The notes under the pieces: generated by a model
Database searches by the model: none
What the model was told of the DNA's origin: nothing
The model's input: the letters and a program-made list of their open reading frames with translations, nothing else
Made by a program: the position numbers and the translations under genes
Shown: one piece after another, positions 24,854 through 52,043 of the stretch
Layout: every line of letters starts with the position of its first letter
How positions within the stretch are numbered: position 1 is the stretch's first letter
From: Plantibacter flavus
GTDB taxonomy: Bacteria; Actinomycetota; Actinomycetes; Actinomycetales; Microbacteriaceae
NCBI RefSeq assembly: GCF_002024505.1
Contig: NZ_CP019402.1
Location: forward strand, 2,852,001-2,916,000
Direction of reading: 5' to 3'
Length of the DNA stretch: 64,000 bases

Positions 24854-24887
24854 CCGTCGGTCCGCCCGTTCTCGGGCGAACGGACGG
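24854..24887. terminator. Bidirectional hairpin between convergent genes; possible solo repeat
   Basis: The core CGCCCG-TTCT-CGGGCG extends outward to CCGTC/GACGG with two mismatches. It lies exactly between a plus-strand and a minus-strand stop codon and can terminate both. The core and TTCT loop match the palindrome at 50854-50877 (CGCCC-n-TTCT-n-GGGCGAA-n-GG), so it may be a dispersed copy of that repeat family. Confidence 0.6.
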
Positions 24888-36443: not shown

Positions 36444-36457
36444 TCCCGCCGTCCGTT

Positions 36458-36552
36458 CGCAACTCCTGCTCGTCGCTGTCCGCAAGCCCGCGCCCGCCGC
36501 ATTCAGCGCGCAGCCCGCGAAGTGCCCGCGCGGTGGGCAGGAGTTGTGCGCA
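36458..36552. repeat. Inverted-repeat element at the 3' edge of the first nuclease cassette
   Basis: CAACTCCTGC (36460-36469) and GCAGGAGTTG (36537-36546) are perfect 10-bp inverted arms about 67 nt apart; the right arm continues TGCGCA. The right half lies inside the 3' end of the nuclease gene, which ends at 36503, so the repeat encodes part of the C-terminus (VRTTPAHR). The arms match those at 37525-37603 and 37666-37768 on the other side of the gene. Confidence 0.75.
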
Positions 36553-37402
36553 CCTCCCCGATCAGACCGGTGATGGCCGCCGCAACGAGGCCGGGCTCGT
36601 ACACCACATGCTGGTAGAGCGGTCGCAACGTCGTCAGCCCGCGCGAGGCGGCTCTGAGGTCACGGGTGCGGTCTGAGACGGCGTGCGACCACCCCTCATG
36701 ATGGGCTCGACTGTCGACCTCGATCAACAACGACTCAGCCACCAGGAGATCACCGCGTCCACCCTCCGCCAGGCGGGGCTGCACCTCGTACGACAGACCG
36801 AGGCTGCGGACGATCAAGCGCAGGAGTGTCTCCGGACCTGACTCGGCGCGTCCATCGATCAACGCCATGAGCGCACGAAAGCGTCCGGGCACCAGGGCGA
36901 AGACTCGACGGAGGTCAGGTTCATCGACCAACCCGAGATGGACCGCGCTGTCGAGCGTCGCAAGTGCCATACGCGGCGCCTGGCACCGGATGGACTGGGC
37001 CAGTGCGTCGATGATCGACACGTCGCAGTCGAACGTGCCGCACGGCTGGTCAAGCGGTCTCCAGTGGAGGCTGAACTCCCGTCGATCGCTGGTAGCCAGC
37101 CGTCGGTCCTCCGCCCGCGGTCCGCGAAGTCGTGAGGCGCTGCGGTCCACATGCACATGGACCCGGGTGGCGTCGAACACGAACACACCACGGGCGGCCA
37201 GGGTGGACAGGCACGCTCGCCTCCCCCCGATGCGGACTGCGGCACGGATGTCATCGTGCACTCCGGGGAGCGCGTATCGATCGCGCCGCACGCGAACGAT
37301 CGTTCCGTCGCGCACCGCCTGGGTGATCGCACGCGGTCGCATCCCTTCCTCGAGAAGCGTCGAGCGGGCGAAGATCGTGTGACCAGAAGATGCGCTGTCC
37401 AT
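36503..37402 (-). CDS. AbiEi-like/DUF559 (Vsr-like nuclease fold) protein, cassette A
   Basis: A 299-residue protein with two parts. The N-terminal ~50 residues (TIFARSTLLEEGMRPRAITQAVRDGTIVRVRRDRYAL) resemble the winged helix of AbiEi-type antitoxins. Residues ~185-285 look like DUF559/Vsr-like PD-(D/E)XK nucleases: Glu in ESGPETLLRL, Asp in GRGDLLVAESLLIEVD with the E-x-D pair, then His and DRTRDLRAASRG. No AbiEii toxin or methylase gene is adjacent. Base and codon use is a little less GC-rich than the neighbours. It is flanked on both sides by its own inverted repeats. Function is unknown; a nuclease acting on those repeats is inference. Confidence 0.7.
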   Translation of the reverse strand: MDSASSGHTIFARSTLLEEGMRPRAITQAVRDGTIVRVRRDRYALPGVHDDIRAAVRIGGRRACLSTLAARGVFVFDATRVHVHVDRSASRLRGPRAEDRRLATSDRREFSLHWRPLDQPCGTFDCDVSIIDALAQSIRCQAPRMALATLDSAVHLGLVDEPDLRRVFALVPGRFRALMALIDGRAESGPETLLRLIVRSLGLSYEVQPRLAEGGRGDLLVAESLLIEVDSRAHHEGWSHAVSDRTRDLRAASRGLTTLRPLYQHVVYEPGLVAAAITGLIGEVRTTPAHRAGTSRAAR

Positions 37403-37524
37403 CCATCGATGGTTGGGGCACCGGTCGAGCGGGCGGTCACAAGCGATGGCTTCACCGTCGGTCGAGGACTGCCGGAACCCTGTGGAGGAGGGTCACGGCC
37501 GGGGCTTCACCGTCGCGCATGGTT

Positions 37525-37603
37525 CACAACTCCTGCTGGCCACTGGCCAACGCTCAGGATCGGCCACGGAGAGGCACCGCAGCAGCGACGAGCAGGAGTT
37601 GTG
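37525..37603. repeat. Inverted-repeat element 2 of cassette A (5' side)
   Basis: CACAACTCCTGCT (37525-37537) and AGCAGGAGTTGTG (37591-37603) are perfect 13-bp inverted arms with 53 nt between them. The right arm continues CGCAGAT, as does that of the next element. This and the next element fill most of the 450-base gap between the nuclease gene and the glpK terminator; I see no gene in that gap. Confidence 0.85.
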
Positions 37604-37612
37604 CGCAGATGG

Positions 37613-37639
37613 GACCCCCATCTCGACGAGATGGGGGTC
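37613..37639. repeat. Perfect 27-nt palindrome inside cassette A
   Basis: GACCCCCATCTCG, a single A, then CGAGATGGGGGTC: 13-bp arms with a one-base centre. It lies exactly between inverted-repeat elements 2 and 3. It could be a terminator, a cruciform or a protein site. Confidence 0.8.
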
Positions 37640-37665
37640 GGAGCGAGTCTTGCGGGAGCAGTTCG

Positions 37666-37768
37666 TCTGCGCAGAACTCCTGCGCCTGACAGGACCGGTC
37701 GGCGCGGGCAGGCGGAATGGCGCGGTTGTTCCCGTGCCGGTCCTCAAGCTGCAGGAGTTCTGCGCAGA
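37666..37768. repeat. Inverted-repeat element 3 of cassette A (outer 5' edge)
   Basis: TCTGCGCAGAACTCCTGC (37666-37683) and GCAGGAGTTCTGCGCAGA (37751-37768) are perfect 18-bp inverted arms with 67 nt between them. Inside, AGGACCGG and CCGGTCCT add a second stem. The arms share the core AACTCCTGC with elements 1 and 2 but the interiors differ, so the ends are what is conserved. Confidence 0.85.
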
Positions 37769-37803
37769 TTCACCCTTCAGGAGCCGAGCGAGGACGGACG
37801 ACA

Positions 37804-37839
37804 GAACGGCCCGCCCTCCGCGAGGAGGACGGGCCGTTC
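37804..37839 (-). terminator. Terminator after glpK
   Basis: GAACGGCCCG (37804-37813) pairs with CGGGCCGTTC (37830-37839), and CCTCC/GGAGG continue inside around a GCGA loop. It starts 14 nt after the glpK stop codon on the minus strand and marks the outer limit of cassette A. Confidence 0.75.
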
Positions 37840-37852
37840 CGGTCGGTCGGGA

Positions 37853-39367
37853 CTACTGCACGTCGTCGTCGACCCAGTCGAAGGTCTTCGTGACGGCCTT
37901 CTTCCAGTTGCGGTAGAGGCGGTCGCGCTCTGCGGAGTCCATGTTGGGCTCCCAGCGCTTGTCCTCCTGCCAGTTCTTCGCGAGGTCGTCGAGGTCGGAC
38001 CAGAAGCCGACGGCGAGACCGGCCGCGTAGGCCGCGCCGAGCGCCGTGGTCTCCGCGACGACCGGTCGGATGACCGGGACACCGAGGATGTCGGCCTGGA
38101 ACTGCATGAGCGTGTCGTTGGCGGTCATGCCGCCGTCGACCTTGAGCTCCGTCAGCGGGACACCGGAGTCGGCGTTGACGGCGTCGATGACCTCGGCCGT
38201 CTGGAACGCGGTCGACTCGAGGGCGGCCCGGGCGATGTGGCCCTTGTTGACGTACCGGGTGAGCCCGACGAGCGCACCGCGGGCGTCCGGACGCCAGTAC
38301 GGCGCGAACAGCCCGGAGAACGCCGGCACGAAGTACGCGCCACCGTTGTCCTCGACGGTCTTGGCGAGCGCCTCGACCTCGGGAGCGGAGGAGAACATGC
38401 CGAGGTTGTCGCGCAGCCACTGGACGAGCGAACCGGTCACGGCGATCGAACCCTCGAGCGCGTAGTGCGGCTTCGCGTCACCGAGCTTGTAGCCGAGCGT
38501 CGTCAGCAGACCGTTCTCGGAGTGGACGATCTCCTCACCGGTGTTGAAGATGATGAAGTTACCGGTGCCGTAGGTGTTCTTGGCCTCGCCCTGCTGGAAC
38601 GCGGCCTGACCGAAGGTCGCCGCCTGCTGGTCGCCGAGGATGCCGGCGATCGGCGTCTCGCGGAGGAGGCTGTCGTCGGACGCGTGGCCGTAGACCTCGG
38701 AGGAGCTCTTGATCTCCGGGAGCATCGACTTCGGGACACCGAACGCCTTGAGGATCTCGTCGTCCCACTGCAGGGTCTCGAGGTCCATGAAGAGCGTGCG
38801 CGAGGCGTTGGTGACGTCCGTGACGTGCACGCCGCCGTTGACACCACCGGTGAGGTTCCAGATGACCCAGCTGTCGGTCGTGCCGAACAGGAGGTCGCCC
38901 GCCTCGGCCTTCTCGCGAGCACCCTCGACGTTCTCGAGGATCCAGACGATCTTGGTGCCGGAGAAGTAGGTCGCCAGCGGCAGGCCGACGGTCTTCTTGA
39001 AGCGCTCGACGCCACCGTCCGCAGCGAGGCGGTTCACGATGTCCTGCGTGCGCGTGTCCTGCCAGACGATCGCGTTGTAGACGGGCTGACCGGTGGTCTT
39101 GTCCCAGACGACGGCGGTCTCGCGCTGGTTCGTGATGCCGATGGCCGCGATGGCGTGCCTGGTGATGTTGGCCTTGCTGAGCGCCTGGCCGATGACCTCG
39201 CGGGTGTTGTTCCAGATCTGGTTCGGGTTGTGCTCGACCCAGCCGGCCTTCGGGAAGATCTGCTCGTGCTCGAGCTGGCCCGTCGAGACGATCGATCCGC
39301 TCTTGTCGAAGACGATGGCCCGGGAACTCGTCGTCCCCTGGTCGATTGCGATGACGTAGTCCGCCAT
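37853..39367 (-). CDS. glpK: Glycerol kinase
   Basis: A 504-residue FGGY kinase. The start is [21 protein letters not shown]. Substrate and ATP blocks are [43 protein letters not shown] and the FGGY signature [20 protein letters not shown] (partial). It phosphorylates glycerol to glycerol-3-phosphate, which GlpD oxidises. GAAGGAGT precedes the ATG at 39367, which fixes the start. It is downstream of the glycerol facilitator gene, with two hairpins between. Confidence 0.95.
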
Positions 39368-39401
39368 TGGATACTCCTTCGTTGCGTGCGTTGCGAGGTG
39401 A

Positions 39402-39459
39402 GGCACCGGAACCGGTGCCCCGGGGTGCCGCGGCGGTGATCGTGTCCGGTCACCGCCGC
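39402..39459 (-). terminator. Two hairpins between glpF and glpK
   Basis: GGCACCGG-AA-CCGGTGCC (39402-39419) and GCGGCGGTGA (39430-39439) with TCACCGCCGC (39450-39459) are perfect 8-bp and 10-bp stems in the 101-nt gap between glpF and glpK. They may reduce read-through from the glpF promoter, so that the channel and the kinase are made in different amounts. Confidence 0.6.
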
Positions 39460-39468
39460 AGCGTCAGG

Positions 39469-40221
39469 TCAGACGGCCGGGAGCAGCACCATCGAGGCGA
39501 GGGCCGCGAGGACACCACCGAGCAGAGGACCGACGACCGGCACCCAGGCGTAGGACCAGTCGCTCTTGCCCTTGCCCTTGATGGGGAGGAGGGCGTGGGC
39601 GATGCGCGGACCGAGGTCACGTGCCGGGTTGATCGCGTAGCCGGTCGGGCCACCGAGGGAGGCTCCGATACCGACGACGAGCAGGGCGACGGGCAGGGCG
39701 CCCAGGGCTGCGAGTCCTCCGGGCACGCCCTCGATGACCACCGCGTCGGGGCCGGTCTTGCCGAAGGACATCACGACGAAGACGAGGACGAAGGTCGCGA
39801 TGACCTCGGTGACGAGGTTCCAGCCGTAGCTGCGGATCTCCGGACCGGTCGAGAAGACACCGAGCTTCTTGCCCGGGTCCTCCTCCTGGTCGAAGTGCTG
39901 CTTGAAGGCGAAGTACGTCAGCACGGCACCGATGAAGGCACCGACCATCTGCGCCGCCCAGTAGACGAGCGCCGTACCGAAGTCGATCGACCCCGTGGTG
40001 AGGAAGCCGATCGTGACGGCGGGGTTCAGGTGTCCGCCGGAGGCGTAGGACACCGTGACGCCGGCGAAGACCGCGAGGCCCCAACCGAAGTTGATGAGCA
40101 GCCAGCCGCCACCGAGGCCCTTGGATTTCGTGAGGATCGCCGTGGCGACCACACCGGTACCGAGCAGGACGAGCATCGCCGTCCCCACGGTCTCGGAGAG
40201 GAAGATGGTTCCGAGGTTCAT
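39469..40221 (-). CDS. glpF: Glycerol uptake facilitator (aquaglyceroporin)
   Basis: A 250-residue MIP-family channel with six membrane segments and both half-helix motifs: HLNPAVTIG and INPARDLGPR. The Asp after the second NPA (NPARD) is typical of glycerol-conducting members. It lets glycerol enter for phosphorylation by GlpK. The ATG at 40221 is preceded by AAAGGTCAATGA. Confidence 0.93.
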   Translation of the reverse strand: MNLGTIFLSETVGTAMLVLLGTGVVATAILTKSKGLGGGWLLINFGWGLAVFAGVTVSYASGGHLNPAVTIGFLTTGSIDFGTALVYWAAQMVGAFIGAVLTYFAFKQHFDQEEDPGKKLGVFSTGPEIRSYGWNLVTEVIATFVLVFVVMSFGKTGPDAVVIEGVPGGLAALGALPVALLVVGIGASLGGPTGYAINPARDLGPRIAHALLPIKGKGKSDWSYAWVPVVGPLLGGVLAALASMVLLPAV

Positions 40222-40314
40222 GTCTTCATTGACCTTTCATAGGTGTGGCCGTGTGGGGGCCGACGCCGAGGCGCGAGCCCCCGCTGGGCGAGGTTGCACT
40301 GACCAGTTGCTTGT

Positions 40315-40369
40315 AAGGTAGCCAGCTCCTGTTGCACAGGACAAGGGCCTTGCCTGCACATTCGTGCAT
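40315..40369 (-). promoter_or_regulatory. glpF promoter and candidate SorC-regulator operator
   Basis: On the minus strand TTGTCC (40340-40345), a 19-nt spacer and TACCTT (40315-40320) form a promoter. The dyad TGCACATTCGTGCA (40356-40369) lies 10 nt upstream of the -35 and touches the glpD stop codon. A further TGCACA (40334-40339) is in the spacer. The dyad matches a site before the divergent regulator gene (42216-42229) at 11 of 14 positions, so both are probably bound by that regulator. Confidence 0.5.
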
Positions 40370-42105
40370 TATGAGAACGCCGGGGCCTCCTTGGCGGCGT
40401 CCACCCGGAGGTCGACCTGGTGGGCGTCGCGCAGGCGGTCGAGCGCTGCGGAGATCTGCGCGGTCCGTTCGGCGTCGTCCCACCCGAGGACACCGCCGAC
40501 GACGCGGGCGATCTCGTCGACGAGGCCGGCGGTCAGCGATCCGGTGAACGCGAGGCTCGTGCGGCGGTGCAGCACGTCGGAGAGGTGCACGACCTGCTCC
40601 TGCTCGACGAGGTACTCCAGCTCCTGCACGCTGTAGTCGGCAGCGCCCTGCAAGCGGTCATCGCCGTGCTCGGACAGGTGCTCGAGGAGTGCGGCGGCCT
40701 TCGTGCCGTACCGGCCCAGCAGCTGCTCGGCGCGCTTGGCGCCGGTGCCGTCCTCGTGCGCGGCGACCCAGGTGCGCGTCGCGGCGTCGGTGCGCGGGAA
40801 GCCTGCGCCGCCACCGATCGCGAGTCCGAGGGTCTCCACGGGGCGCGGGGCTCCGATGGTGTTGAGCACGTCCGTGCTGAGGTGCTCGGCGAGGGCCCGG
40901 AAGGTGGTCCACTTGCCACCGACGAGGCTGAACACGGTGGTGGACGGACGTGCAGCGGCGGCCCGGCGCTCGATCCGGTAGTCGCGCGACACGAAGCCGG
41001 GGGCCTCGTCGTCGTGCTTCGGCAGCGGGCGGATGCCGGAGAACCGGTAGACGATCTGCTCACGCGAGGTCGCGATGGTCGGGAAGACGTGCTTCACGAG
41101 GTCGAAGAAGTAGTCGACCTCCTCCTCGGTGCAGACGCTCGGGGTGCTCGGGTCGGCGTCGATGTCGGTCGTGCCGACCATGACCTTGCCCTTGAGCGGG
41201 TAGATGAGGACGATGCGGCCGTCCTCGTGCTCGAAGAAGATCTCGCGTCCCTTGGTGGCCGCGTAGAGCTCCGGGTTGTCGAGGACGATGTGCGAGCCCT
41301 TCGTGCCGCCCATGTAGGTCGTCGGCTCGCCGAGGCCGGCGTTCGTGAGGTCGGTCCAGGGGCCGGAGGTGTTGACCACGACGTCGCTGGTCACGGTGAA
41401 GGTCTGGCCGGTGGCCGTGTCGCGGAGCTCGACGCCGTCGGCACCCATGCCGACCGCCTCGACGTAGTTGACGGCGCGGGCGTGCGGGCCAGCGGCGAGG
41501 CCGTCCATGAGGACGTCGAGCGCGAGGCGCTCCGGGTCGTGCATGGAGGCGTCGTAGTAGGTCGCCGTGTACTTGAGGCCCGGGTTCATCTTCGGCAGGT
41601 CGGCGAGGGACTTCTTGCGGCCGTGGAAGCGGTGACGCGGCACGCTGCCACCGTCACGGGAGAAGGAGTCGTACGCGGTGAGGCCGACCTTGATGAGCAG
41701 CGCGCCACGCTCCTGCGGCTTGCCCTGCTTGTGGGTGAGGAAGCGCAGCGGTGCGGAGAGGATGCCGGAGAAGGTCGAGAAGATCGGGACCGTGGTCTCG
41801 AGCGGCTTCACGTAGTGCGGGGCGATCTTGATGAGCCCGTTGCGCTCCTGCACCGACTCCTGGACGAGGCGGAACTCACCGTTCTCGAGGTACCGGATGC
41901 CGCCGTGGATCATGTGGCTCGACGCGGCGGAGGCGCCGGAGGCCCAGTCGTTGCGTTCCACGAGCGTGACGTCGACGCCCTGGAGCGCCAGGTCGCGGAA
42001 GGTCGCGATGCCGTTGATGCCGCCGCCGATGATGAGCACCGACGCCTGCGGGCGGTCGATGACGGACTGGACGGTGGAACGGGGAGCTGACGACTTGAGG
42101 GACAT
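40369..42105 (-). CDS. glpD: Glycerol-3-phosphate dehydrogenase (aerobic, FAD)
   Basis: A 578-residue flavoprotein with FAD motif VLIIGGGINGIATFRDLALQG, the DWASGASAASSHMIHGGIRYLE block, LIYPLKGKVMVGTTDID and the C-terminal DAO_C domain. It oxidises glycerol-3-phosphate to dihydroxyacetone phosphate and reduces quinone at the membrane. The ATG at 42105 has GAGG 8 nt upstream; longer in-frame extensions upstream carry no family sequence. It lies upstream of glpF and is divergent from the SorC-type regulator. Confidence 0.94.
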   Translation of the reverse strand: MSLKSSAPRSTVQSVIDRPQASVLIIGGGINGIATFRDLALQGVDVTLVERNDWASGASAASSHMIHGGIRYLENGEFRLVQESVQERNGLIKIAPHYVKPLETTVPIFSTFSGILSAPLRFLTHKQGKPQERGALLIKVGLTAYDSFSRDGGSVPRHRFHGRKKSLADLPKMNPGLKYTATYYDASMHDPERLALDVLMDGLAAGPHARAVNYVEAVGMGADGVELRDTATGQTFTVTSDVVVNTSGPWTDLTNAGLGEPTTYMGGTKGSHIVLDNPELYAATKGREIFFEHEDGRIVLIYPLKGKVMVGTTDIDADPSTPSVCTEEEVDYFFDLVKHVFPTIATSREQIVYRFSGIRPLPKHDDEAPGFVSRDYRIERRAAAARPSTTVFSLVGGKWTTFRALAEHLSTDVLNTIGAPRPVETLGLAIGGGAGFPRTDAATRTWVAAHEDGTGAKRAEQLLGRYGTKAAALLEHLSEHGDDRLQGAADYSVQELEYLVEQEQVVHLSDVLHRRTSLAFTGSLTAGLVDEIARVVGGVLGWDDAERTAQISAALDRLRDAHQVDLRVDAAKEAPAFS

Positions 42106-42202
42106 GAGATGCCTCGCTTCTTCGCGGTTGGAACGCGACGCTGCCGGGATTGCGCGCCGCTGAATGATGTGACTGAATACATCGTGACACCCGCTGCAAC
42201 TC

Positions 42203-42229
42203 TGAACAGCCCTAGTGAACAAACGTGCA
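42203..42229. promoter_or_regulatory. Candidate operator in the glpD/regulator divergent region
   Basis: TGAACAAACGTGCA (42216-42229) matches the dyad before glpF (TGCACATTCGTGCA), and a second TGAACA is at 42203-42208. The first site ends against the AAGGAG Shine-Dalgarno sequence of the regulator gene, so binding would also block the regulator's own expression. Confidence 0.5.
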
Positions 42230-42239
42230 AGGAGACCCG

Positions 42240-43226
42240 ATGTCGCTCGCAGACGCGCTCAGTCAGCCGGACCGGACGGCCGAGGCGCTCCGTGCCGCAC
42301 AGCTGTATTACGTGCAGGACCTCACCATGGAGGCCATCGCCCAGGAGCTCCACACCTCCCGGTCGTCGGTGTCCCGCCTGCTCGGATATGCGCGGGAAAG
42401 CGGGCTCGTCGACATCCAGGTGCGCTCCCCGCACGACATGCCGTCGCGGCTCGAAGCGGAGTTCCGCGACCGGTTCGGCGTGACCGCCCACATCGTCCCG
42501 GTCCCCGACCACACGAGCGACATCGACCGCCTGGAGCGGGTCGCCCTCTCGGCTGCACGTTTTCTCGGCTCCGTGTTCGACTCGAACATGACGCTCGGCC
42601 TGGCCTGGGGCTCGACCGTGAGTGCGGTGGCGAGGCACCTCACCCCCAAGCGGACCCACAACTCGCAGATCGTCCAGCTGAACGGTGCGGCCAACACGCG
42701 CACCTCGGGCATCCTCTACGCGAGTGAGATCCTGCATCGGTACGCGGACGCCTACGGGGCCTACGCGCAGCAGTTCGCGGTTCCGGCCTTCTTCGACGAC
42801 CCGTCGACCAAGCTCGCCCTGTGGCGGGAGCGCAGCATCCGACGCGTGCTCGAGATCCAACGGCGCATGGACGTCGCGCTGTTCGGTCTCGGTTCGCAGC
42901 TCTCGGGCGTACCCAGCCACGTGTACGTCGGCGGCTACCTCGACGACAGCGACTTCGAGGCGCTCGCGAGCGCCGGGGCGGTCGGGGACGTCGCGACCGT
43001 CTTCTTCCGCGCCGACGGTTCGTGGCGGGACATCCCCTTCAACAACCGCGCATCCGGACCCGACCTCGACGTGCTGCGCGGGGTCTCCCGTCGGATCTGC
43101 GTGGTCGCCGGTGCCGCCAAGGTGCCGCCGCTCCTCGGGGCGTTGGCGGGAGGGCTCATCTCCGACCTCGTGGTCGACGAGGGAACCGCCCGCGCGGCGA
43201 TCGATCAGCATGACGCCCAGCGCTGA
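42240..43226 (+). CDS. SorC-family (sugar-binding) transcriptional regulator of glycerol genes
   Basis: A 328-residue regulator. The N-terminal HTH (AAQLYYVQDLTMEAIAQELH, then SRSSVSRLLGYARESGLVDI) is followed by the SorC sugar-phosphate domain (LGLAWGSTVSAVARHL, SQIVQLNGA, VALFGLGSQ, GLISDLVVDE). SorC proteins are tetramers that respond to phosphosugars. Position next to glpD and shared operator-like sites suggest control of glpD and glpF by a glycerol metabolite. The ATG at 42240 has AAGGAG 7 nt upstream, which selects it over an in-frame ATG at 42225. Confidence 0.87.
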   Translation: MSLADALSQPDRTAEALRAAQLYYVQDLTMEAIAQELHTSRSSVSRLLGYARESGLVDIQVRSPHDMPSRLEAEFRDRFGVTAHIVPVPDHTSDIDRLERVALSAARFLGSVFDSNMTLGLAWGSTVSAVARHLTPKRTHNSQIVQLNGAANTRTSGILYASEILHRYADAYGAYAQQFAVPAFFDDPSTKLALWRERSIRRVLEIQRRMDVALFGLGSQLSGVPSHVYVGGYLDDSDFEALASAGAVGDVATVFFRADGSWRDIPFNNRASGPDLDVLRGVSRRICVVAGAAKVPPLLGALAGGLISDLVVDEGTARAAIDQHDAQR

Positions 43227-43299
43227 CCCCGGCCGCTTCAGGCGCTGCAACCGGGCGTCATCCGAACCGGGAATAGGGCACCCACTCAGCCCGTTGACC

Positions 43300-43476
43300 T
43301 AGAATCGACAACACGTAACGTGCTCCGGGGTCGGTGAGAGTCCGAACCGGCGGTGATAGTCCGCGACCCGTGTCTCGCGCAAGCGAGGCCCGGTTGACCT
43401 GGTGGAACTCCAGGACCGACGGTTATGAACGCGTCTGCTCGCAGACGGCGTTCGAGTCCGGATGGAAGGAAGCACG
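43300..43476 (+). ncRNA. FMN riboswitch (RFN element) with its -10 element
   Basis: TAGAAT at 43300-43305 is the -10. The aptamer runs 43319-43476: P1 pairs CGTGCT with AGCACG, and the conserved RFN blocks are all present (CTCCGGGGTCGGTGAGAGTC, GAACCGGCGGTGATAGTCCG, CGGTTGACCTGGTGGAACTC, then CAGGACCGACGGTTATG and GTCCGGATGGAAGGAAG). It binds FMN and turns the riboflavin operon down. About 80 nt separate it from ribD, room for an expression platform that hides the ribD start region. With the 3' end of this segment it accounts for the 332-base gap before ribD. Confidence 0.95.
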
Positions 43477-43558
43477 GGCGTCGGCCGATGGTCGACGCCG
43501 GCGAGCACCTGCCCGCGACCCCGGAACTCGTGTCAGTACCGACCGAGATGACGGACAG

Positions 43559-44635: not shown

Positions 44636-44656
44636 CCCCCAGAGAACGGACCACCC

Positions 44657-45352
44657 ATGTTCACGGGCATCATCGAAGAACTCGGCACCATCGTCGCCAT
44701 CGACCACGGCGACGACTCGGCACGTTTCACCGTCCGTGGCCCGCTCGCCCTCGAGGGCACCCGGCACGGGGACTCCATCGCCGTGAGCGGTGTCTGCCTC
44801 ACCGTCGTCGAGCAGACCGGTGAGACGTTCACGGCCGACGTCATGGCCCAGACCCTCGCGATGAGCTCGCTCGACGGCGTCACGGTCGGATCTCCGGTCA
44901 ACCTCGAACGTGCGGCCCGCGTCGGTGACCGTCTCGGTGGACACATCGTCCAAGGGCACGTCGACGGCACCGGCACCGTCCTGGCCACGGTGCCCGGCGA
45001 GGCCTGGCGCATCGTGCGTGTCTCGCTCCCCGCGGCACTCGCGCCGCTCGTCGTCGACAAGGGGTCGATCACCGTCGACGGCGTCTCGCTCACCGTCAGC
45101 GCCATCAGCGCTCCGGATGCACCGGAGGCCTGGTTCGAGGTGTCCCTCATCCCCGAGACGCTGGCCGCGACGACGCTCGGCGATCGGGTCCCCGGCGACC
45201 GTGTGAACCTCGAGACCGACATCCTCGCCAGGCACGTCGAGCGCATGCTCGCCTTCAGCCGTCTCGAGTCGGCACTCCCCAGCAGCATCGGCCAGGATCC
45301 GCAGTCCGCGGACCCGGTCGGCACCACCGCCACCGGAAGGGGCAACGTATGA
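44657..45352 (+). CDS. ribE: Riboflavin synthase alpha chain
   Basis: A 231-residue enzyme with the family start MFTGIIEELGTI and two lumazine-binding barrels. The repeats show VSGVCLTVVE / VDGVSLTVSA and GGHIVQGHVDGTG. It joins two lumazine molecules to make riboflavin. The C-terminal ~30 residues after FSRLESALP are an extra Ser/Pro-rich tail. Its stop overlaps the ribBA start by 4 nt. Confidence 0.94.
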   Translation: MFTGIIEELGTIVAIDHGDDSARFTVRGPLALEGTRHGDSIAVSGVCLTVVEQTGETFTADVMAQTLAMSSLDGVTVGSPVNLERAARVGDRLGGHIVQGHVDGTGTVLATVPGEAWRIVRVSLPAALAPLVVDKGSITVDGVSLTVSAISAPDAPEAWFEVSLIPETLAATTLGDRVPGDRVNLETDILARHVERMLAFSRLESALPSSIGQDPQSADPVGTTATGRGNV

Positions 45353-46632
45353 GCATCGCCAGCATCCCGGAGGCCCTCGAGGCACTCCGCCAGGGCCGTC
45401 CCGTCATCGTGGCCGACGACGAAGGCCGAGAGAACGAGGGCGACGTGATCCTCGCTGCGGAGTCCGCCACCCAGGAGTGGATCGCATGGACGGTCCGGCA
45501 CTCCTCCGGATTCATCTGCGCACCGATGACGAACGAGATCGCCGACCGCTTGGCCCTCCCGCCGATGGTCGCGCTCAACGAGGACCCCAGAGGCACCGCG
45601 TACACCGTCACGGTCGACGCGGCCGACCGACTCAGCACCGGCATCAGCGCCGCCGACCGCGCTCACACCCTGCGCGTGCTCGCCGACCCGGCGTCCGTGC
45701 CTGCCAGTCTCTCGCGCCCCGGACACATCGTCCCGTTGCGCGCCGTCGACGGCGGGGTGCGCGAGCGCGACGGGCACACGGAGGCGGCCGTCGACCTCAT
45801 GAAGCTCGCGGGGCTCGTCCCGGTCGGAGCGATCTCCGAGATCGTCGCCGACGACGGCGAGATGATGCGTCTGCCCGGCCTCATCGCGCTCGGCGAGCGG
45901 GAGGGCGTGCTCGTCACGACGATCGCCGCGCTCGTCGCGTTCCTCGAGGAGAACCCCGACGCGGCCGCGGTCTGCGCCGAGGAACGCACCGCCCAGGCGG
46001 CCATCCCCGAGTCGTCGAACGTGTCCTTCGAGGTGGAGACGACCGTCCCGACAACGCACGGCTCGTTCCGGTTGCGCGCCTACCGCGACCGCAGGACCGG
46101 TGCCGACCACGTCGCCATCATCGCCGGCGACCCGCAGGCCACCGGTGCGCTCGTGCGCGTCCACTCGGAGTGCCTGACCGGCGAGGCGTTCGGCTCGCTC
46201 AAGTGCGAGTGCGGTCCGCAGCTCGACAGCGCCCTCGACACCATCCAGCGCCACGGCGGTGTCGTCGTCTACCTGCGTGGGCACGAGGGGCGCGGCATCG
46301 GTCTCGTCAACAAGCTGCGTGCGTACCGGTTGCAGGAGGACGGTCTCGACACCCTCGACGCCAACCTCGCGCTCGGGCTGCCGGCCGACGCCCGCGACTA
46401 CACGGCGGCGAGCGCGATCCTGACGGACCTCGGCATCACCTCCGTGCGCCTGCTCTCGAACAACCCGGAGAAGGAGCGACAGCTCACGAACCACGGCATC
46501 GCCGTGAGCGAGCGCGTCCCGTTGGTGGTCGGCGTCGGCCTGTTCAACGAGGGCTACCTCGAGACGAAGCGCGACCGCATGGGCCACAGCATCGGCTTCG
46601 AGCTCGCACCGGAACCGCACCCGCACCAGTAG
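45349..46632 (+). CDS. ribBA: Bifunctional DHBP synthase/GTP cyclohydrolase II
   Basis: A 427-residue fusion. The DHBP synthase part (~1-205) has [20 protein letters not shown] and [14 protein letters not shown]. The cyclohydrolase II part (~210-427) has the zinc cluster [17 protein letters not shown] and [19 protein letters not shown]. It supplies both precursors: 3,4-dihydroxy-2-butanone-4-phosphate from ribulose-5-phosphate and the pyrimidine from GTP. The start overlaps the ribE stop. Confidence 0.95.
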
Positions 46633-46641
46633 TCCACCATC

Positions 46642-46664
46642 GCTCCTCGATTCCTTCGAGGAGC
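46642..46664 (+). terminator. Hairpin between ribBA and ribH
   Basis: GCTCCTCGA (46642-46650) pairs with TCGAGGAGC (46656-46664) around TTCCT, 10 nt after the ribBA stop. There is no T-tract and ribH follows on the same strand, so it is likelier an mRNA-processing or attenuation hairpin than a full terminator. Confidence 0.55.
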
Positions 46665-46714
46665 GGGAACACCACCAACCCCCGATGCGCTCGGGGACGA
46701 AGACAGGAGACCGC

Positions 46715-47185
46715 ATGAGCGGCGAAGGATCCCCCACCATCAGCGTCGACGGCACCGGCCTCGACATCGTCGTCATCGCCGGCACCTGGCACGAGACCAT
46801 CACCGACGGTCTCATCGCCGGAGCCGTCAAGGCCCTCGATGCGAGCGGTGCCAACCATCGCCTCGTGCGGGTCCCCGGGAGCTTCGAGCTCCCGGTCGTC
46901 GCCAAAGCCGCCCTCGAGGCCGGGGCCGATGCGGTCGTCGCCCTCGGGGTCATCATCCGCGGCGGCACGCCGCACTTCGAGTACGTCTCCGACGCCGCGA
47001 CGAGCGGCCTCACCCAGGTCAGCATCCAGACGGGCAAGCCCGTCGGCTTCGGCGTCCTCACCCTCGACGACGAGAAGCAGGGGCTCGACCGCGCGGGGCT
47101 TCCCGGGTCGAAGGAGGACAAGGGGGCGGAGGCCGCCGATGCCGCCGTGGCCACCGCGGTCGTCCTCCGCGAGCTGCGCGGCTGA
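46715..47185 (+). CDS. ribH: 6,7-dimethyl-8-ribityllumazine synthase
   Basis: A 156-residue enzyme with [19 protein letters not shown], the substrate blocks [29 protein letters not shown] (active His) and [16 protein letters not shown]. It condenses the two precursors into lumazine for riboflavin synthase. ACAGGAGA precedes the ATG. It is the last gene of the riboflavin operon. Confidence 0.95.
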
Positions 47186-47204
47186 CTCGAGCGCGTCGCA
47201 TCAC

Positions 47205-47260
47205 GCGGCATTCCGGTATCGGCATCCGCCCTGCTGGGCAACCGAATACCGGAATGCCGC
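47205..47260. repeat. 56-nt element with 15-bp inverted ends
   Basis: GCGGCATTCCGGTAT (47205-47219) and ATACCGGAATGCCGC (47246-47260) are perfect inverted arms around 26 nt; allowing one gap, CGG/CCG extends them inward. It lies 19 nt after ribH. The right arm covers the expected -35 of the next promoter (TACAGT at 47270-47275). It can be the ribH terminator, an operator or a REP-like repeat of a third kind. Confidence 0.7.
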
Positions 47261-47387
47261 ACTTCGGCGTACAGTGTCATGGTCCTGCCACAAGCGGGCG
47301 AACCTCTGATCCTGCCGTCGTCGGCGGGCGTGCGCGACCGGTGCTGATGCTTCGACGGCGTCCATTCCCGAACCGAAACGCGCACGC

Positions 47388-48734
47388 ATGTCTCTCGAAG
47401 CAACCCCAGTCACCAAGGCCCCGGTCAATCCGCGCTCTCGTGTCGTCCTCGCCAGCCTCATCGGCACGACGATCGAGTTCTACGACTTCTACGTCTACGC
47501 GACGGCCGCCGTCCTCGTCTTCCCGCACCTCTTCTTCCCGAGTGAGGACCCGACCGCGGGTCTCCTCGCCTCCTTCGCCGTGTTCGGCGCCGCGATGGTG
47601 GCACGCCCCGTCGGTGCCGTCATCTTCGGGCACCTCGGCGACAAGCGCGGTCGGAAGGCGACGCTCGTCGGTGCCCTCCTCACCATGGGGATCGCGACCT
47701 TCCTCATCGGCCTCCTGCCCACCTACCAGCTCGTCGGCTGGGTCGCCCCGCTGCTGCTCGTGATCCTCCGCATCGGTCAGGGCTTCGCGCTCGGCGGCGA
47801 ATGGTCGGGTGCCGCCCTCGTGGCGACCGAGAACGCGCCGACCGGCAAGCGTGCCCTGTTCGGCACGTTCCCGCAGCTCGGTGCGCCGATCGGCTTCATC
47901 ATCGCCAACGGACTCTTCCTGATCATCGCGGCTATCCTGCCGAGCGACGACCCGTCCATGCCGTCCGAGGCGTTCCTCGAGTGGGGTTGGCGCATCCCGT
48001 TCCTGTTCTCCGTCGTCATGGTGATCGTCGGCCTCTGGGTCCGACTCCGCCTCGTCGAGAGCAACGCGTTCACGAACGCGAAGGAGCAGGGCAAGGTGCA
48101 GCGGTCGCCGCTCGCGAGCGTCGTCAAGCTGCACTGGCGCAAGCTGCTCCTCGGCACCTTCTTCATGCTCGCCACGTACGTCCTCTTCTACCTGATGACG
48201 ACGTTCTCGCTGAGCTACGGCCGTGCGCCGCTCGACGCGCCGGTCGCCGGCCTCGGCTACAGCTACACGACCTTCGTCCTCATGCTCATCGCCGGCGTGG
48301 TCTTCTTCGGGATCTTCACGCTCGTGTCCGGCCCCTTCGCCGACAAGTACGGACGCCGGAGGACGCTCATCGTCGTGACGAGCGCGATCCTCGTGTTCGG
48401 GCTCGTCTGGGTCCCGCTGCTCGGCGCCGGGTTCACGGGGGTCATGATCTGGCTCATCATCGGGTTCAGCCTCATGGGGTTCACCTTCGGACCGATGGGC
48501 GCCCTGCTGCCCGAGCTGTTCCCGACGAACGTGCGGTACACCGGGTCGGGGATCTCGTACAACGTGTCGTCGATCCTCGGCGCAGCGGTCGCACCGTTCA
48601 TCGCCGTCGCACTGTGGAGTGCCGGCGGCGGCAGCCCGTTCTGGGTCGGCGTCTACCTCTCGGTGATGGCCCTGATCACGCTCGTCGCCCTCATCGTCTC
48701 CAAGGAGACCAAGGACGTCGACATCGACGCCTGA
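47388..48734 (+). CDS. MHS-family (metabolite:proton symporter) MFS transporter
   Basis: A 448-residue transporter with 12 predicted membrane segments. MHS signatures are ASLIGTTIEFYDFYVYATAA, FGHLGDKRGRKATLV and RIGQGFALGGEWSGAALVATE, with PELFPTNVRYTGSGISYNVS in the second half. Relatives carry shikimate, proline/betaine, citrate or ketoglutarate; the substrate is not clear here. The promoter is likely TACAGT (47270-47275), giving a ~105-nt leader. There is no strong RBS. Confidence 0.85.
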   Translation: MSLEATPVTKAPVNPRSRVVLASLIGTTIEFYDFYVYATAAVLVFPHLFFPSEDPTAGLLASFAVFGAAMVARPVGAVIFGHLGDKRGRKATLVGALLTMGIATFLIGLLPTYQLVGWVAPLLLVILRIGQGFALGGEWSGAALVATENAPTGKRALFGTFPQLGAPIGFIIANGLFLIIAAILPSDDPSMPSEAFLEWGWRIPFLFSVVMVIVGLWVRLRLVESNAFTNAKEQGKVQRSPLASVVKLHWRKLLLGTFFMLATYVLFYLMTTFSLSYGRAPLDAPVAGLGYSYTTFVLMLIAGVVFFGIFTLVSGPFADKYGRRRTLIVVTSAILVFGLVWVPLLGAGFTGVMIWLIIGFSLMGFTFGPMGALLPELFPTNVRYTGSGISYNVSSILGAAVAPFIAVALWSAGGGSPFWVGVYLSVMALITLVALIVSKETKDVDIDA

Positions 48735-48750
48735 TCGAGGCGATCACCGA

Positions 48751-48787
48751 GGGCCGGTGCGTGGAGGACACCTCCGCGCACCGGCCC
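48751..48787 (+). terminator. Terminator after the MHS transporter
   Basis: GGGCCGGTGCG (48751-48761) pairs with CGCACCGGCCC (48777-48787); GGAGG/CCTCC continue inside around an ACA loop with one mismatch. It is 17 nt after the stop codon and is followed by TTGCTGCG. Confidence 0.75.
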
Positions 48788-48916
48788 TTGCTGCGTCGGC
48801 GCTCGGCGCGTCGGCTTCGGGCTCGGCGCGTGCGACCGTCGCCTAGAGTTGAACCACGGTGCGCCGTCGCCATGGACGTCTCGGAGCCGCGCACCGCACC
48901 TCGGAGGAAGAGCACC

Positions 48917-50845
48917 ATGAGCACCCCAGCGCGCCCGGCACGCAGCCGCAACCCGTTCAGCCGACCGAAGGACGACGGTCCCCGCGCGAGCCTCAAGCAG
49001 CTCATGCCGTACATCTTCGAGCACCGCTCGATCCTCATCGTCGTCATCATCCTGAGCGTCATCGGAGCGGCCGCGTCACTCGCCCAGCCGCTCATCGTCA
49101 GCCAGGTGATCGGGGTCGTCGAGGCGGGCCGGTCGCTCGGCAACCTGGCGTGGCTCCTCGTCGGGCTCGTCGTGGTCTCCGGCGTCATCAGCGGATACCA
49201 GCACTACCTGCTGCAGCGCGCAGGCACCGGGGTCGTGTACTCCTCCCGGCGCCAGCTGATCGCGCGCATCTTCCGGCTGCCGATCAGCCAGTTCGACACG
49301 CGCCGCACCGGCGACCTCGTCTCGCGGGTCGGCAGCGACACGACCATGCTCTATGCCGTCCTGACGCAGGGCTTCGTGGACGCCGTCGGCGGTGCCATCA
49401 CCTTCCTCGGCGCACTCATCGCCATGGCGATCATCGACCCCGTCCTGCTGGGTCTCACCCTCCTCGTCGTCATCGTCTCGGTCGTCGTGGTCGTCGCGCT
49501 GAGCGGACGCATCCGCGTCGCCAGCCGCGAGCAGCAGACCAAGGTGGGTGAGCTCGCCGCGGCGGTCGAGCGGGCCATCAGCTCCATCCGCACCATCCGC
49601 GCGTCCAACGCGACCGACCGCGAGATCGACGCGGTGGACGGCGTGGCCAAGGAGGTCTACGGCGTGGGCGTGCGGATCGCGAAGATCTCCTCGCTGGTCG
49701 TCCCGGTCGCCGGCATCGCCATGCAGACCTCGTTCCTGGTCGTCCTCGGCGTCGGTGGGTTCCGCGTCGCGTCCGGGGCCATCACGATCGCGAGTCTCGT
49801 CGCGTTCATCCTCTTCCTGTTCATGATGATCATGCCGCTCGGTCAGGCCTTCGGTGCGATCACGAGCGTCAACCAGGCGCTCGGAGCGCTCGGCCGGATC
49901 CAGGAGATCCTCGACCTGCCCGACGAGGGCGACGACGACGCGGCCATCGCCGCGCGGGTCGGACGTCCCGGGGCCGCCTCAGCGTCCGCTCCGGCGATCG
50001 AGTTCGACGGGGTCGAGTTCGCCTACCCGGACGCGGCGGTCATCGAGCGCGAACGGGCCGCAGCGGAGGCGCTCGCGACCGATGCGCTGAGCGAGGGCAC
50101 CAGCGCACCGCAGGTCGTCGCCGCCGACGCCGCCCGGCTCACCGAGGCACAGTCGGCGCTCGGTCGTCAGGTGCTCCGTGGGGTGTCCTTCGCCGCGATG
50201 CAGGGCAGACGCACGGCGCTCGTCGGACCGTCCGGCGCCGGCAAGAGCACCATCCTCGGGCTCATCGAACGGTTCTACGACCCGACGGCCGGTGCCATCC
50301 GGCTGGGCGGCGTCGACATCCGCACGATCCCCCGCGCCGACCTCCGGGACCAGATCGGGTACGTGGAACAGGACGCCCCGGTCCTCGCCGGCACGCTGCG
50401 TGACAACCTGCTGTTGTCGTCACCGGATGCGAGCGACGCCGACTGCGAGCGCGTCCTGCACGCGGTCAACCTCGGCGGGGTCCTCGACCGCAACCCACTC
50501 GGTCTCGCCGCTCCGGTCGGCGAGGACGGCATCATGCTGTCGGGTGGCGAGCGGCAACGCCTCGCCATCGCTCGCGCCATCCTCGCGGCTCCCCCGATCC
50601 TGTTGTTGGACGAGTCGACCTCGAGCCTCGACGGTGTCAACGAGCAGATGATGCGGGAAGCCATCGACGCGGTCGCGACGGGACGCACGCTCATCGTCAT
50701 CGCGCACCGGCTCTCGACCGTCGTCGACAGCGATCAGATCGTCGTCCTCGAGGAGGGTCGGGTGGTCGGCGTCGGCACCCACAGCGACCTCGTGACCGAG
50801 GTCCCGCTCTACCGCGAACTCGCCAAGCACCAGCTCCTCGTGTGA
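48917..50845 (+). CDS. ABC exporter, fused membrane and ATPase domains
   Basis: A 642-residue half-transporter of the MsbA/MDR type. Six membrane segments (~35-325) include the coupling region ISQFDTRRTGDLVSRVGSDT. The ATPase has Walker A VGPSGAGKST, Q-loop VEQDAPVLAGTLRDNLL, signature LSGGERQRLAIARAIL, Walker B ILLLDESTSSLD and the switch His in VIAHRLSTV. An unusual ~45-residue insert rich in Ala/Glu (YPDAAVIERERAAAEALATD onward) splits the first ATPase strand from the Walker A. GGAGGAAG precedes the ATG at 48917. It acts as a dimer; the substrate is unknown. Confidence 0.88.
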   Translation: MSTPARPARSRNPFSRPKDDGPRASLKQLMPYIFEHRSILIVVIILSVIGAAASLAQPLIVSQVIGVVEAGRSLGNLAWLLVGLVVVSGVISGYQHYLLQRAGTGVVYSSRRQLIARIFRLPISQFDTRRTGDLVSRVGSDTTMLYAVLTQGFVDAVGGAITFLGALIAMAIIDPVLLGLTLLVVIVSVVVVVALSGRIRVASREQQTKVGELAAAVERAISSIRTIRASNATDREIDAVDGVAKEVYGVGVRIAKISSLVVPVAGIAMQTSFLVVLGVGGFRVASGAITIASLVAFILFLFMMIMPLGQAFGAITSVNQALGALGRIQEILDLPDEGDDDAAIAARVGRPGAASASAPAIEFDGVEFAYPDAAVIERERAAAEALATDALSEGTSAPQVVAADAARLTEAQSALGRQVLRGVSFAAMQGRRTALVGPSGAGKSTILGLIERFYDPTAGAIRLGGVDIRTIPRADLRDQIGYVEQDAPVLAGTLRDNLLLSSPDASDADCERVLHAVNLGGVLDRNPLGLAAPVGEDGIMLSGGERQRLAIARAILAAPPILLLDESTSSLDGVNEQMMREAIDAVATGRTLIVIAHRLSTVVDSDQIVVLEEGRVVGVGTHSDLVTEVPLYRELAKHQLLV

Positions 50846-50917
50846 CCCCGGTTCATTCGCCCATTCTTGGGCGAATGGGTGCTCCGTCGCCCAAAAAAGG
50901 GCGAATGAACGGTGTCA
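50841..50917. repeat. Double-hairpin inverted-repeat element at the 3' edge of cassette B
   Basis: Outer arms GTTCATTCGCCC (50851-50862) and GGGCGAATGAAC (50899-50910) are perfect, and GTGAC/GTCAC continue outward with small gaps. Inside, CATTCGCCCA-TTCT-TGGGCGAATG (50854-50877) is a perfect 10-bp hairpin, and TCGCCC-A6-GGGCGA (50887-50904) a second. The right end covers the stop codon of the nuclease gene; the left end covers the stop of the ABC exporter. It can also terminate both genes. Confidence 0.85.
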
Positions 50918-51877
50918 CGGGCGCCATCCTGCCGCAATGAGGCGCTCGCGTGCTCGGTCGATCGCGACCGCGGCACCCGCTTGCAGGTGGTGTGCGAGGA
51001 AGCGGTCGTGGGACCAGCCGAGTCTGGTGACGGCATGGATCCGGTCGACGTCCTTCGCGAACTGCCCCGGGTCGGTGGCGTGCTGGCGCCCGTCGTACTC
51101 GAACGCTGCGCGATACGCCGGGTAGGCGAGGTCGAGACGTGCGATGAATCGCCCCCAGCGATCGCGGAGTTCGTGGTTGAGCACCGGCTCCGGGAGGCCG
51201 GCACGAACGAAGGCGAGTCGGAGTTCCGTTTCCTTCGGCGATTCGGAACCAGCGCGGATCTGCGAGAGCGCGGCACGGAGTGCCCCCGCGCCGAGACGCC
51301 GGGATCCGCTGAGCGCCGCTCCGAGGTCGTCGAGCGAGCAGAGCGCTGGAAGGCGCTGGTTGAGCCACCGGCCGGACGCACCACGCTCACGGATCAGATG
51401 ATCGCCGACCGCGATCAGCTCATCGATGTCGAGAATCGGTCCGGGCCGACACCACATGTCGGCGGGACTCACGACCGCGAGCCTCTCGACGAGGATCGGA
51501 TCGCCGAAGAGGCCCGCCAAGCGATGGCCGACGACCCCGGCAACCCTGGGCGCTCGGTCCGGCGGCCGGACGCCGACATGCACCTCGTCCCAGCGCAGCC
51601 GCGCCGGGAGCGGAGCCTCCAGGAGATGCGCGGCCGACAGGTGCGAGAAGAACTGCGCCGGTGCCATTCGCAAGGCGTACGCACGACACAGCTCCAGGTG
51701 CGCGAGATGACGCTGTTCGGGAGGCAGGTCCGCGCCCCTGCGCGGTGCAGCGAGGCTCCGAACCCCCGGGAACGGTGCCGGGACGCGCGTCGTGCGGAGG
51801 CGCTCCGGCGAGACGCCCTGCTCCAGCGCCGAGCGGACGGAGAAGGCGTGGTGATCGGGTAGATCGGTCGGCGTCAT
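50915..51877 (-). CDS. AbiEi-like/DUF559 (Vsr-like nuclease fold) protein, cassette B
   Basis: A 320-residue protein with the same plan as the one at 36503-37402 but distant in sequence. The N-terminus has a winged-helix-like AFSVRSALEQGVSPERL and PGVRSL. The C-terminal nuclease-like part has Glu in ESPKETELRLAF, Asp in FIARLDLAYP, FEYDGRQHATDPGQF (E-x-D and His) and DVDRIHAVTRLGW, which fits DUF559/Vsr-like PD-(D/E)XK folds. No toxin, methylase or helicase partner is adjacent. It is bracketed by TTCGCCC/GGGCGAA repeats on both sides. The function is unknown. Confidence 0.7.
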   Translation of the reverse strand: MTPTDLPDHHAFSVRSALEQGVSPERLRTTRVPAPFPGVRSLAAPRRGADLPPEQRHLAHLELCRAYALRMAPAQFFSHLSAAHLLEAPLPARLRWDEVHVGVRPPDRAPRVAGVVGHRLAGLFGDPILVERLAVVSPADMWCRPGPILDIDELIAVGDHLIRERGASGRWLNQRLPALCSLDDLGAALSGSRRLGAGALRAALSQIRAGSESPKETELRLAFVRAGLPEPVLNHELRDRWGRFIARLDLAYPAYRAAFEYDGRQHATDPGQFAKDVDRIHAVTRLGWSHDRFLAHHLQAGAAVAIDRARERLIAAGWRP

Positions 51878-51965
51878 GCTTCGATCGTCGCGCGATCGGT
51901 CGGTCCGCGAACGGCGTATCCTCCTCGTATCGACAAGCCGCCGCGGTCTCCAGCCTGTGGAGCGC

Positions 51966-52043
51966 CCTCGTCACCGGTTCGTTCGCCCATCTTTGGGCAC
52001 CCGAACCTCCATTCGCCCAAAATTGGGCGAATGGAGGACGAGG
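51966..52043. repeat. Double-hairpin inverted-repeat element at the 5' edge of cassette B
   Basis: CCTCCATTCGCCCAA (52006-52020) and TTGGGCGAATGGAGG (52023-52037) form a perfect 15-bp palindrome around AA. A second hairpin is built from GGTTCG...CGCCCA (51976-51990) and TGGGC...CGAACC (51994-52006). CCTCGTC (51966-51972) and GACGAGG (52037-52043) close the element. Core and layout match the element at 50841-50917. It ends against the pckG stop and can serve as its terminator. Confidence 0.85.

Follow-up and report, generated by a model that had tools for sequence, protein, structure and literature searches.

We analysed a window of 64,000 nucleotides from the Plantibacter flavus chromosome (NZ_CP019402.1, positions 2,852,001 to 2,916,000), part of a 4.21 Mb single-contig genome (here G000) of the family Microbacteriaceae. 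The window contains two cassettes, A and B, each consisting of one putative nuclease gene with inverted repeats of its own on both sides. This arrangement recurs in relatives of both genes across the family, three of the four repeat types tested are also dispersed as pairs away from the gene, and repeat sequence follows protein sequence among close relatives. The explanation we favour, at a probability of roughly 60%, is that these genes encode a family of chromosomal endonucleases and that every member has a private set of approximately 60-bp inverted-pair sites, which would be bound by a dimer and maintained or spread by the nuclease.

Inverted repeats flank most genes of the family

Two protein searches, with A and B as queries, identified seven such genes in G000, two of them in the window; the five further genes comprise three B relatives (36-40% identity) and two A relatives (28-31%). 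All seven have their own inverted repeats on both sides by eye and five of seven by an automatic score, genes A (20) and L003 (22.5) lying below its cut. This score is the best local match between the 350-bp left and right flanks in either orientation, takes direct as well as inverted matches of any repeat, and was cut at 24. Among the matches listed, B relatives were present in 43 of 60 genomes (59 genera of the family), with up to 14 in each; 29 loci (L025-L053) and 60 regions of the listed family matches were used.

A first-pass annotation, made from the letters of the window, had named in advance the test that most such genes should bear flanking repeats, and this was borne out: matching left and right repeats were found at 73 of 95 family loci and in 2 of 95 control windows placed 1 kb outward (L037, at a contig end, was excluded; L094 is counted in the 73 though it has N in its flank, and is to be set aside). 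Mismatched draws of left and right flanks reached the cut in 2.0% of 2,500 cases. Outside Plantibacter 63 of 82 loci passed, against 2 for the control. A-type genes passed in 14 of 19 cases in Microbacteriaceae (control 0/19; 11 of the 19 are from Plantibacter) and in 9 of 21 cases in other families of the order (control 2/21). A stricter rule, by which hairpin arms had to be present on both sides and to match each other, retained 52 of 94 B-type and 18 of 43 A-type loci.

The typical flank consists of an arm, a spacer and the inverted arm. In 85 hairpins from passing loci the medians were 23 nt for the arm (21-25), 15 for the spacer (12-19) and 61 bp in total (58-66); A-type arms are mostly shorter and wider apart. 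Arms of 20-25 nt had been observed before their size was compared with the sites of AbiEi and I-Bth0305I, and the medians were computed afterwards.

Two loci differ in form. L052 (G045) has approximately 300 bp of repeats on each side, with a tandem array of about ten units of about 21 bp on the left and an array of the inverted unit on the right, in place of single pairs. The A-type relatives L121 and L122 (G064 and G046) have one in-frame TGA in two species and are still flanked by long matching repeats.

Pairs are dispersed without the gene

The B-type repeat is the palindrome TTCGCCCANNNTTGGGCGAA, paired at 30 bp start to start. Searching G000 with it at up to three mismatches gave 45 + 41 matches, compared with 1 + 1 for a reversed-pattern control. 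We read 19 solo places, of which 17 are pairs, all exactly 30 bp apart. At up to one mismatch the seven Plantibacter genomes contain 14-60 matches and the control none in each. The exact B-arm pattern was found in 18 stretches among 84,980 species genomes (records near G000 were possibly omitted), and all 18 are in Plantibacter.

Similar results were obtained for two other genera. The arm of the nuclease of G007 gave 51 + 52 matches (control 0 + 1), forming about 50 pairs; in the 43 that were read, the spacing was 37 bp in 40 and 38 bp in 3. A consensus of 39 G007 copies showed that conservation ends at the outer ends of the arms and that the centre of the spacer is free. For G044 there were 17 + 16 matches (control 0 + 0) and 16 pairs, all at 38 bp. 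Reversed-pattern controls for these three types gave 0 to 2 matches. Dispersal is therefore clear for three of the four repeat types tested, and each type keeps a fixed spacing of the pair around a spacer much of whose sequence varies. The solo repeats anticipated in the first-pass annotation exist for B, G007 and G044; for type A they are few.

A further dispersed family, the repeat CTTCGACAAGCTCAGG (L225 and L155, also L151, L157 and L162), was tried as a candidate partner and no link was shown: it was present at 13 of 263 loci, none of them a nuclease locus among those fetched. Separately, G060 has a tandem array with a unit containing CCCTGAGC.

Repeat sequence follows the protein

Arm comparison started from the loci passing the stricter rule, from which one per 80% identity group was taken, with L052 and L094 excluded. 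Over 64 de-duplicated loci, arm similarity tracked protein identity (Mantel r 0.289, p 0.0002), and the same was seen for B-type loci alone (n=49, r 0.081, p 0.034), for A-type loci alone (n=15, r 0.215, p 0.020) and in a comparison with orthologs kept (63 loci, r 0.13, p 0.002). Arms were shared (score of at least 9) by 10 of 21 protein pairs at 50-80% identity and by 0.5-6% of pairs below 50%. The claim that repeat type follows the protein thus held, and the comparison indicates that specificity is kept among close relatives and quickly lost beyond them.

Individual cases illustrate how the arms differ. L026 and L190 encode 69% identical proteins, and their arms have the same ends and a different middle; the new middle is common to all four L190 arms, apart from one or two small deviations. 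Among four A relatives of 42-50% identity from other genera, two (L195 and L196) retain an AACTCCT core.

The two most variable arm positions of G007 were complementary in 57% and 60% of copies, compared with 49% and 55% expected, and showed no covariation. Such independent variation would be expected of two duplex half-sites rather than of a hairpin. Selection for a hairpin would predict covariation, which was lacking at these two G007 positions and seen to some extent in B. Insertion at the tip of existing hairpins was also considered and rejected, the flanks of G007 elements being not clearly more complementary than swapped flanks (p 0.07).

Cassettes and pairs vary between Plantibacter species

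The presence of both genes and pairs varies between species. Cassette A is found in three of seven Plantibacter genomes. Gene B is intact in five of seven; G060 lacks it, and in G063 it is broken, its two matches lying in different frames. B or its remains lie at the same site in five Plantibacter genomes other than G000. No second copy of A or B was found in G000.

In four species the sequences flanking cassette A are contiguous, and a B-type element lies there, as a full pair in G046 and G064 and as a half in G062 and G063. Since the empty A sites hold this element, cassette A appears to have replaced it. At the site of cassette B, G060 has 37 nt with one perfect 30-nt palindrome. Elsewhere in G060 there is a solo A-type pair next to a B element of which the right-hand part remains and which G000 has intact. 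Both G000 and G060 lack two B pairs present in G046, and at one place a pair in G060 corresponds to a single palindrome in G000.

The fewest B palindromes (14 and 22) were counted in the two genomes without an intact B gene, the others having 30, 35, 37, 38 and 60. This association (chance 1/21) is suggestive only, since it comes from seven related genomes and copies in the cassettes were counted; four of the B matches in G000 lie within cassette B itself.

One further place, L016 (at approximately 42.8 kb in G000; compared with L136 and L170), has one element, where G060 has two B-type elements around a short gene and G046 has two about 1 kb apart. It looks as if recombination between elements had deleted the intervening DNA in G000.

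Predicted fold and active site

Proteins A and B are predicted to combine an AbiEi-like N-terminus with a Vsr/EDxHD nuclease domain whose active site is mostly conserved. The AlphaFold2 (AF2) model of A has a pLDDT of 90.9 and matched 6y8q (Foldseek E 5.1e-5) and 3r3p (TMt 0.78). The AbiEi fold with its winged-helix N-terminus was present in the models, where the N-terminal two-thirds share the fold of 6y8q, and the catalytic domain is nearest in fold to the homing endonuclease I-Bth0305I. The first-pass annotation had suggested PD-(D/E)XK nucleases; the nuclease assignment stands, with the proteins now placed in the Vsr/EDxHD branch. The EDxHD/Vsr catalytic residues are mostly conserved in alignments: in 62 sequences residues E191, E228, D230 and H235 of gene A are invariant and D218 is conserved in at least 90%. 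We take these E/D/ExD/H residues to be the EDxHD motif.

No Pfam transposase match was found for the seven G000 proteins up to an E value of 1, a PDB sequence search with B returned nothing relevant, and PADLOC gave weak matches only, mostly of the AbiEi type. Relatives of A were found in 2 of 72,556 plasmid records (about 29% identity) and of B in 1 of 50,697 phage records. The latter, MT837503.1, is a 6.7-kb phage record from human faecal samples that encodes a partial B relative (37% identity over query residues 135-320).

The two cassettes and their genomic position

The features of the window are given in Table 1. The A-type repeats share the core GCAGGAGTTNTGCGCA, with one pair behind gene A and two before it; they are obvious by eye though short and widely spaced. 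The B-type blocks at 50854-50910 and 51977-52033 are 81% complementary. Both cassettes thus have the shared design proposed earlier, which proved general in the family. The 3′ repeat was also said to overlap the gene end: this is true of A, where the second arm of the downstream pair falls inside the 3′ end of the open reading frame (ORF), and not of B, where the downstream pair stops 4 bp short of the stop codon.

Table 1. Features of the 64,000-nt window (window coordinates)
Feature	Position	Strand	Basis
Gene A, 299 aa; predicted AbiEi-like N-terminus and Vsr/EDxHD nuclease C-terminus	36503-37402	-	ORF, predicted structure, conserved residues
A-type pair downstream of gene A; arms 36460-36476 and 36530-36552	36449-36552	.	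inverted repeats I1, I15
A-type pair 1 upstream of gene A; arms 37525-37545 and 37583-37603	37522-37612	.	inverted repeat I4
A-type pair 2 upstream of gene A; arms 37666-37683 and 37751-37768, 100% complementary	37666-37768	.	inverted repeat I5
Cassette A	36461-37797	.	limits from four species without cassette A
Gene B, 320 aa; predicted AbiEi-like N-terminus and Vsr/EDxHD nuclease C-terminus	50915-51877	-	
B-type pair downstream of gene B; two palindromes, 30 bp start to start	50851-50910	.	inverted-repeat listing, pattern search
B-type pair upstream of gene B	51977-52037	.	inverted-repeat listing, pattern search
Cassette B	50847-52043	.	limits from G060, without the cassette, with 37 nt containing one 30-nt palindrome instead
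Decayed solo B-type element; one palindrome, 3 mismatches	24861-24880	+	pattern search; full pair at the same place in G046

Pfam assigned the neighbours of gene A to a class I W/Y tRNA synthetase (trpS, +) and an FGGY kinase (glpK, -), and those of gene B to an ABC exporter (+) and PEPCK (pckG, -), which agrees with the suggested location between convergent genes. Likewise, no toxin, methylase or transposase was found among these four immediate neighbours, as had been claimed. No Rfam family was found at cassette A or B; the sole Rfam match in the window is an FMN riboswitch (RF00050, 77.2 bits) at 43317-43478 (+). Between the two upstream A pairs, at 37613-37639, there is a perfect 13-bp palindrome unlike the A-type sequence.

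The position between convergent genes was also examined more widely. Of 73 repeat-bearing nuclease loci 55 could be called, and 35 were convergent, 15 tandem and 5 divergent; 619 random points in G000, which are not a matched control, gave 69, 496 and 54, respectively. In G007, coding-like ORFs end at the element on both sides at 21 of 38 loci; counted by side, such an ORF ends at the element in 56 of 76 cases and starts there reading away in 11 of 76. The 19 B solo places comprise 4 convergent, 7 tandem and 8 without a call.

Proposed mechanism and alternatives

AbiEi is reported to bind two 23-bp inverted repeats and Rv2827c two such pairs, and both autoregulate through 23-bp inverted repeats (excerpts of PMC7319586); I-Bth0305I dimerises on a target of nearly 60 bp (excerpts of PMC3943268). 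As these site sizes match the pair and the G007 arms vary independently, we propose that the pair is occupied by a nuclease dimer. Each protomer would bind one arm of approximately 23 bp with its AbiEi-like domain, and the Vsr/EDxHD domains would cut or nick within the spacer. As with AbiEi, the upstream pair may double as an operator for autoregulation. If a cut copy were repaired from another one, the copies of one genome would stay alike and a new copy could occasionally be seeded, so that the repeat population would depend on the enzyme, as REPINs do on RAYT. The 3′ ends of genes would be where insertion harms least. We infer binding, cutting and mobilisation.

A number of observations weigh against this reading. 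The flank test was failed by 22 of 95 loci, and the stricter rule for matching arms was met by only 70 of 137. The automatic score of cassette A is weak (20 versus 18 in the control, below the cut; p 0.18), with two Plantibacter orthologs of A scoring 18. Type A gave 9 matches in G000 at up to one mismatch, 4 inside the cassette and 5 outside, and at two mismatches 20 matches versus 14 for the control. Covariation was found among loop positions of B (five columns, p 0.003-0.034, with related copies counted) and in two G007 column pairs at p 0.03, as a hairpin model predicts. Most B pairs compared occupy the same place in several species, so movement or turnover must be slow, and there was no clear target-site duplication at the one clean indel. 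Catalytic positions have exceptions in G000 itself (L007 carries Q for E260, and L003 and L004 carry E for D262). For the B model, Foldseek alone found no match at E <0.001, and the fold calls for B rest on VIA-align.

An alternative, which we regard as unlikely, is that the proteins are AbiEi-type regulators with a nuclease tail, the upstream pair being the operator and the dispersed pairs a regulon without mobility. The autoregulation of AbiEi and Rv2827c speaks for it, as does the right-hand B pair, which starts 100 bp ahead of the start codon of gene B. However, a second full pair lies behind the gene, the G007 elements mostly adjoin ORF ends and seldom ORF starts reading away, and the catalytic residues are conserved in alignments.

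A homing-type selfish gene, whose nuclease cuts solo pairs and is copied into them so that solo pairs are empty or vacated sites, seems slightly less probable again. The closeness of the catalytic domain to I-Bth0305I is consistent with it, and a solo pair could be left when a gene is lost between its flanking pairs. Against this, one gene was found per repeat type compared with tens of solo pairs, B or its remains keep to one site in the other Plantibacter genomes, and the cassette retains a complete pair, the putative recognition site, on either side, whereas insertion of a homing endonuclease gene destroys the recognition site.

The least probable explanation takes the repeats as bidirectional terminators or mRNA-stabilising hairpins between convergent genes, with the nuclease genes incidental: the excess of convergent nuclease loci, the G007 loci with ORF ends on both sides and the perfect hairpin retained at the empty B site of G060 speak for it, but each nuclease has a repeat sequence of its own that stays with it in near relatives, spacing is fixed around a partly free spacer with no conserved T run after the element (G007 consensus), G007 shows little compensatory change, and among the 19 B solo places 4 were called convergent and 7 tandem, with 8 uncalled.

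Each such gene appears to name its own DNA site, since that site is present to the left and right of it and, in the types tested, also in copies elsewhere. DUF559, AbiEi-like antitoxin and very-short-patch-repair endonuclease are the labels of many actinobacterial genes for which no role is known. Such genes become directly testable as a large family of putative nucleases with sequence specificity and predicted targets of approximately 60 bp, and they offer a natural data set of protein-DNA specificity pairs.

Comparison with known systems

Several known systems share single features with the cassettes. Restriction-modification differs in its methyltransferase, none of which was found among the immediate neighbours of A and B. 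Insertion sequences and miniature inverted-repeat transposable elements differ in moving to several sites: no second copy of A or B was found in G000, and in those Plantibacter genomes that carry B it occupies a single locus. CGTC-tagged repetitive extragenic palindromes (REPs) resemble our repeats as palindromic families without an assigned enzyme, and TIRtrons in having terminal inverted repeats around a gene, whereas TIRtrons carry tyrosine transposases and no such nuclease is described with either in the excerpts of PMC3733652. In open-licence PubMed Central, no publication was found that connects DUF559, AbiEi or MTES_1575 proteins with repeats of this kind.

AbiEi and Rv2827c share the fold of the N-terminal two-thirds and, for AbiEi, binding to an inverted pair of 23-bp sites. 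In contrast to AbiE, A and B stand directly next to housekeeping genes, with no AbiEii nucleotidyltransferase toxin among them, the nuclease is fused and the pair is multicopy. I-Bth0305I and Vsr share the catalytic fold and the conserved E/D/ExD/H residues, and the dimer of I-Bth0305I occupies a site of similar length; here, however, the gene is free-standing and intergenic, complete putative sites lie on both sides and solo sites persist.

The closest likeness is to REPIN-RAYT, where, in the excerpts of PMC2817692 and PMC3116915, a gene is flanked by its own repeats, extragenic inverted doublets are the unit, singlets are remnants and the two coevolve. Both systems have a single-copy chromosomal enzyme gene flanked by inverted repeats, a repeat type for each gene, repeats dispersed as doublets, and an enzyme and repeat that change together. 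The RAYT analogy drawn in the first-pass annotation is therefore a good one, as the tests of flanking repeats, repeat-protein covariation and solo copies were all passed. Copy numbers are in the tens here, compared with 37 to 427 REPs per genome in Stenotrophomonas (excerpts of PMC2817692). The Plantibacter enzyme differs in its predicted AbiEi-like and Vsr/EDxHD parts, with no Y1/HUH transposase domain, and the GT(A/G)G (GTAG-like) head is absent: B arms begin GTTCRTTCG, G007 arms TCGAGTGG and G044 arms GTGAGGGG (arms of the remaining loci were checked by eye only).

Tentatively, and at a little under even odds, these genes may form a second, independently evolved class, in which AbiEi-guided EDxHD dimers would recognise, homogenise and slowly multiply their own pairs of approximately 60 bp, specificity diversifying fast among co-resident paralogs. 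Enzyme and site are unrelated to RAYT and REP; as a genomic lifestyle the system would be a convergent second case beside REPIN-RAYT, and a second case in which to ask why bacteria keep repeat populations, a question raised by REPIN-RAYT.

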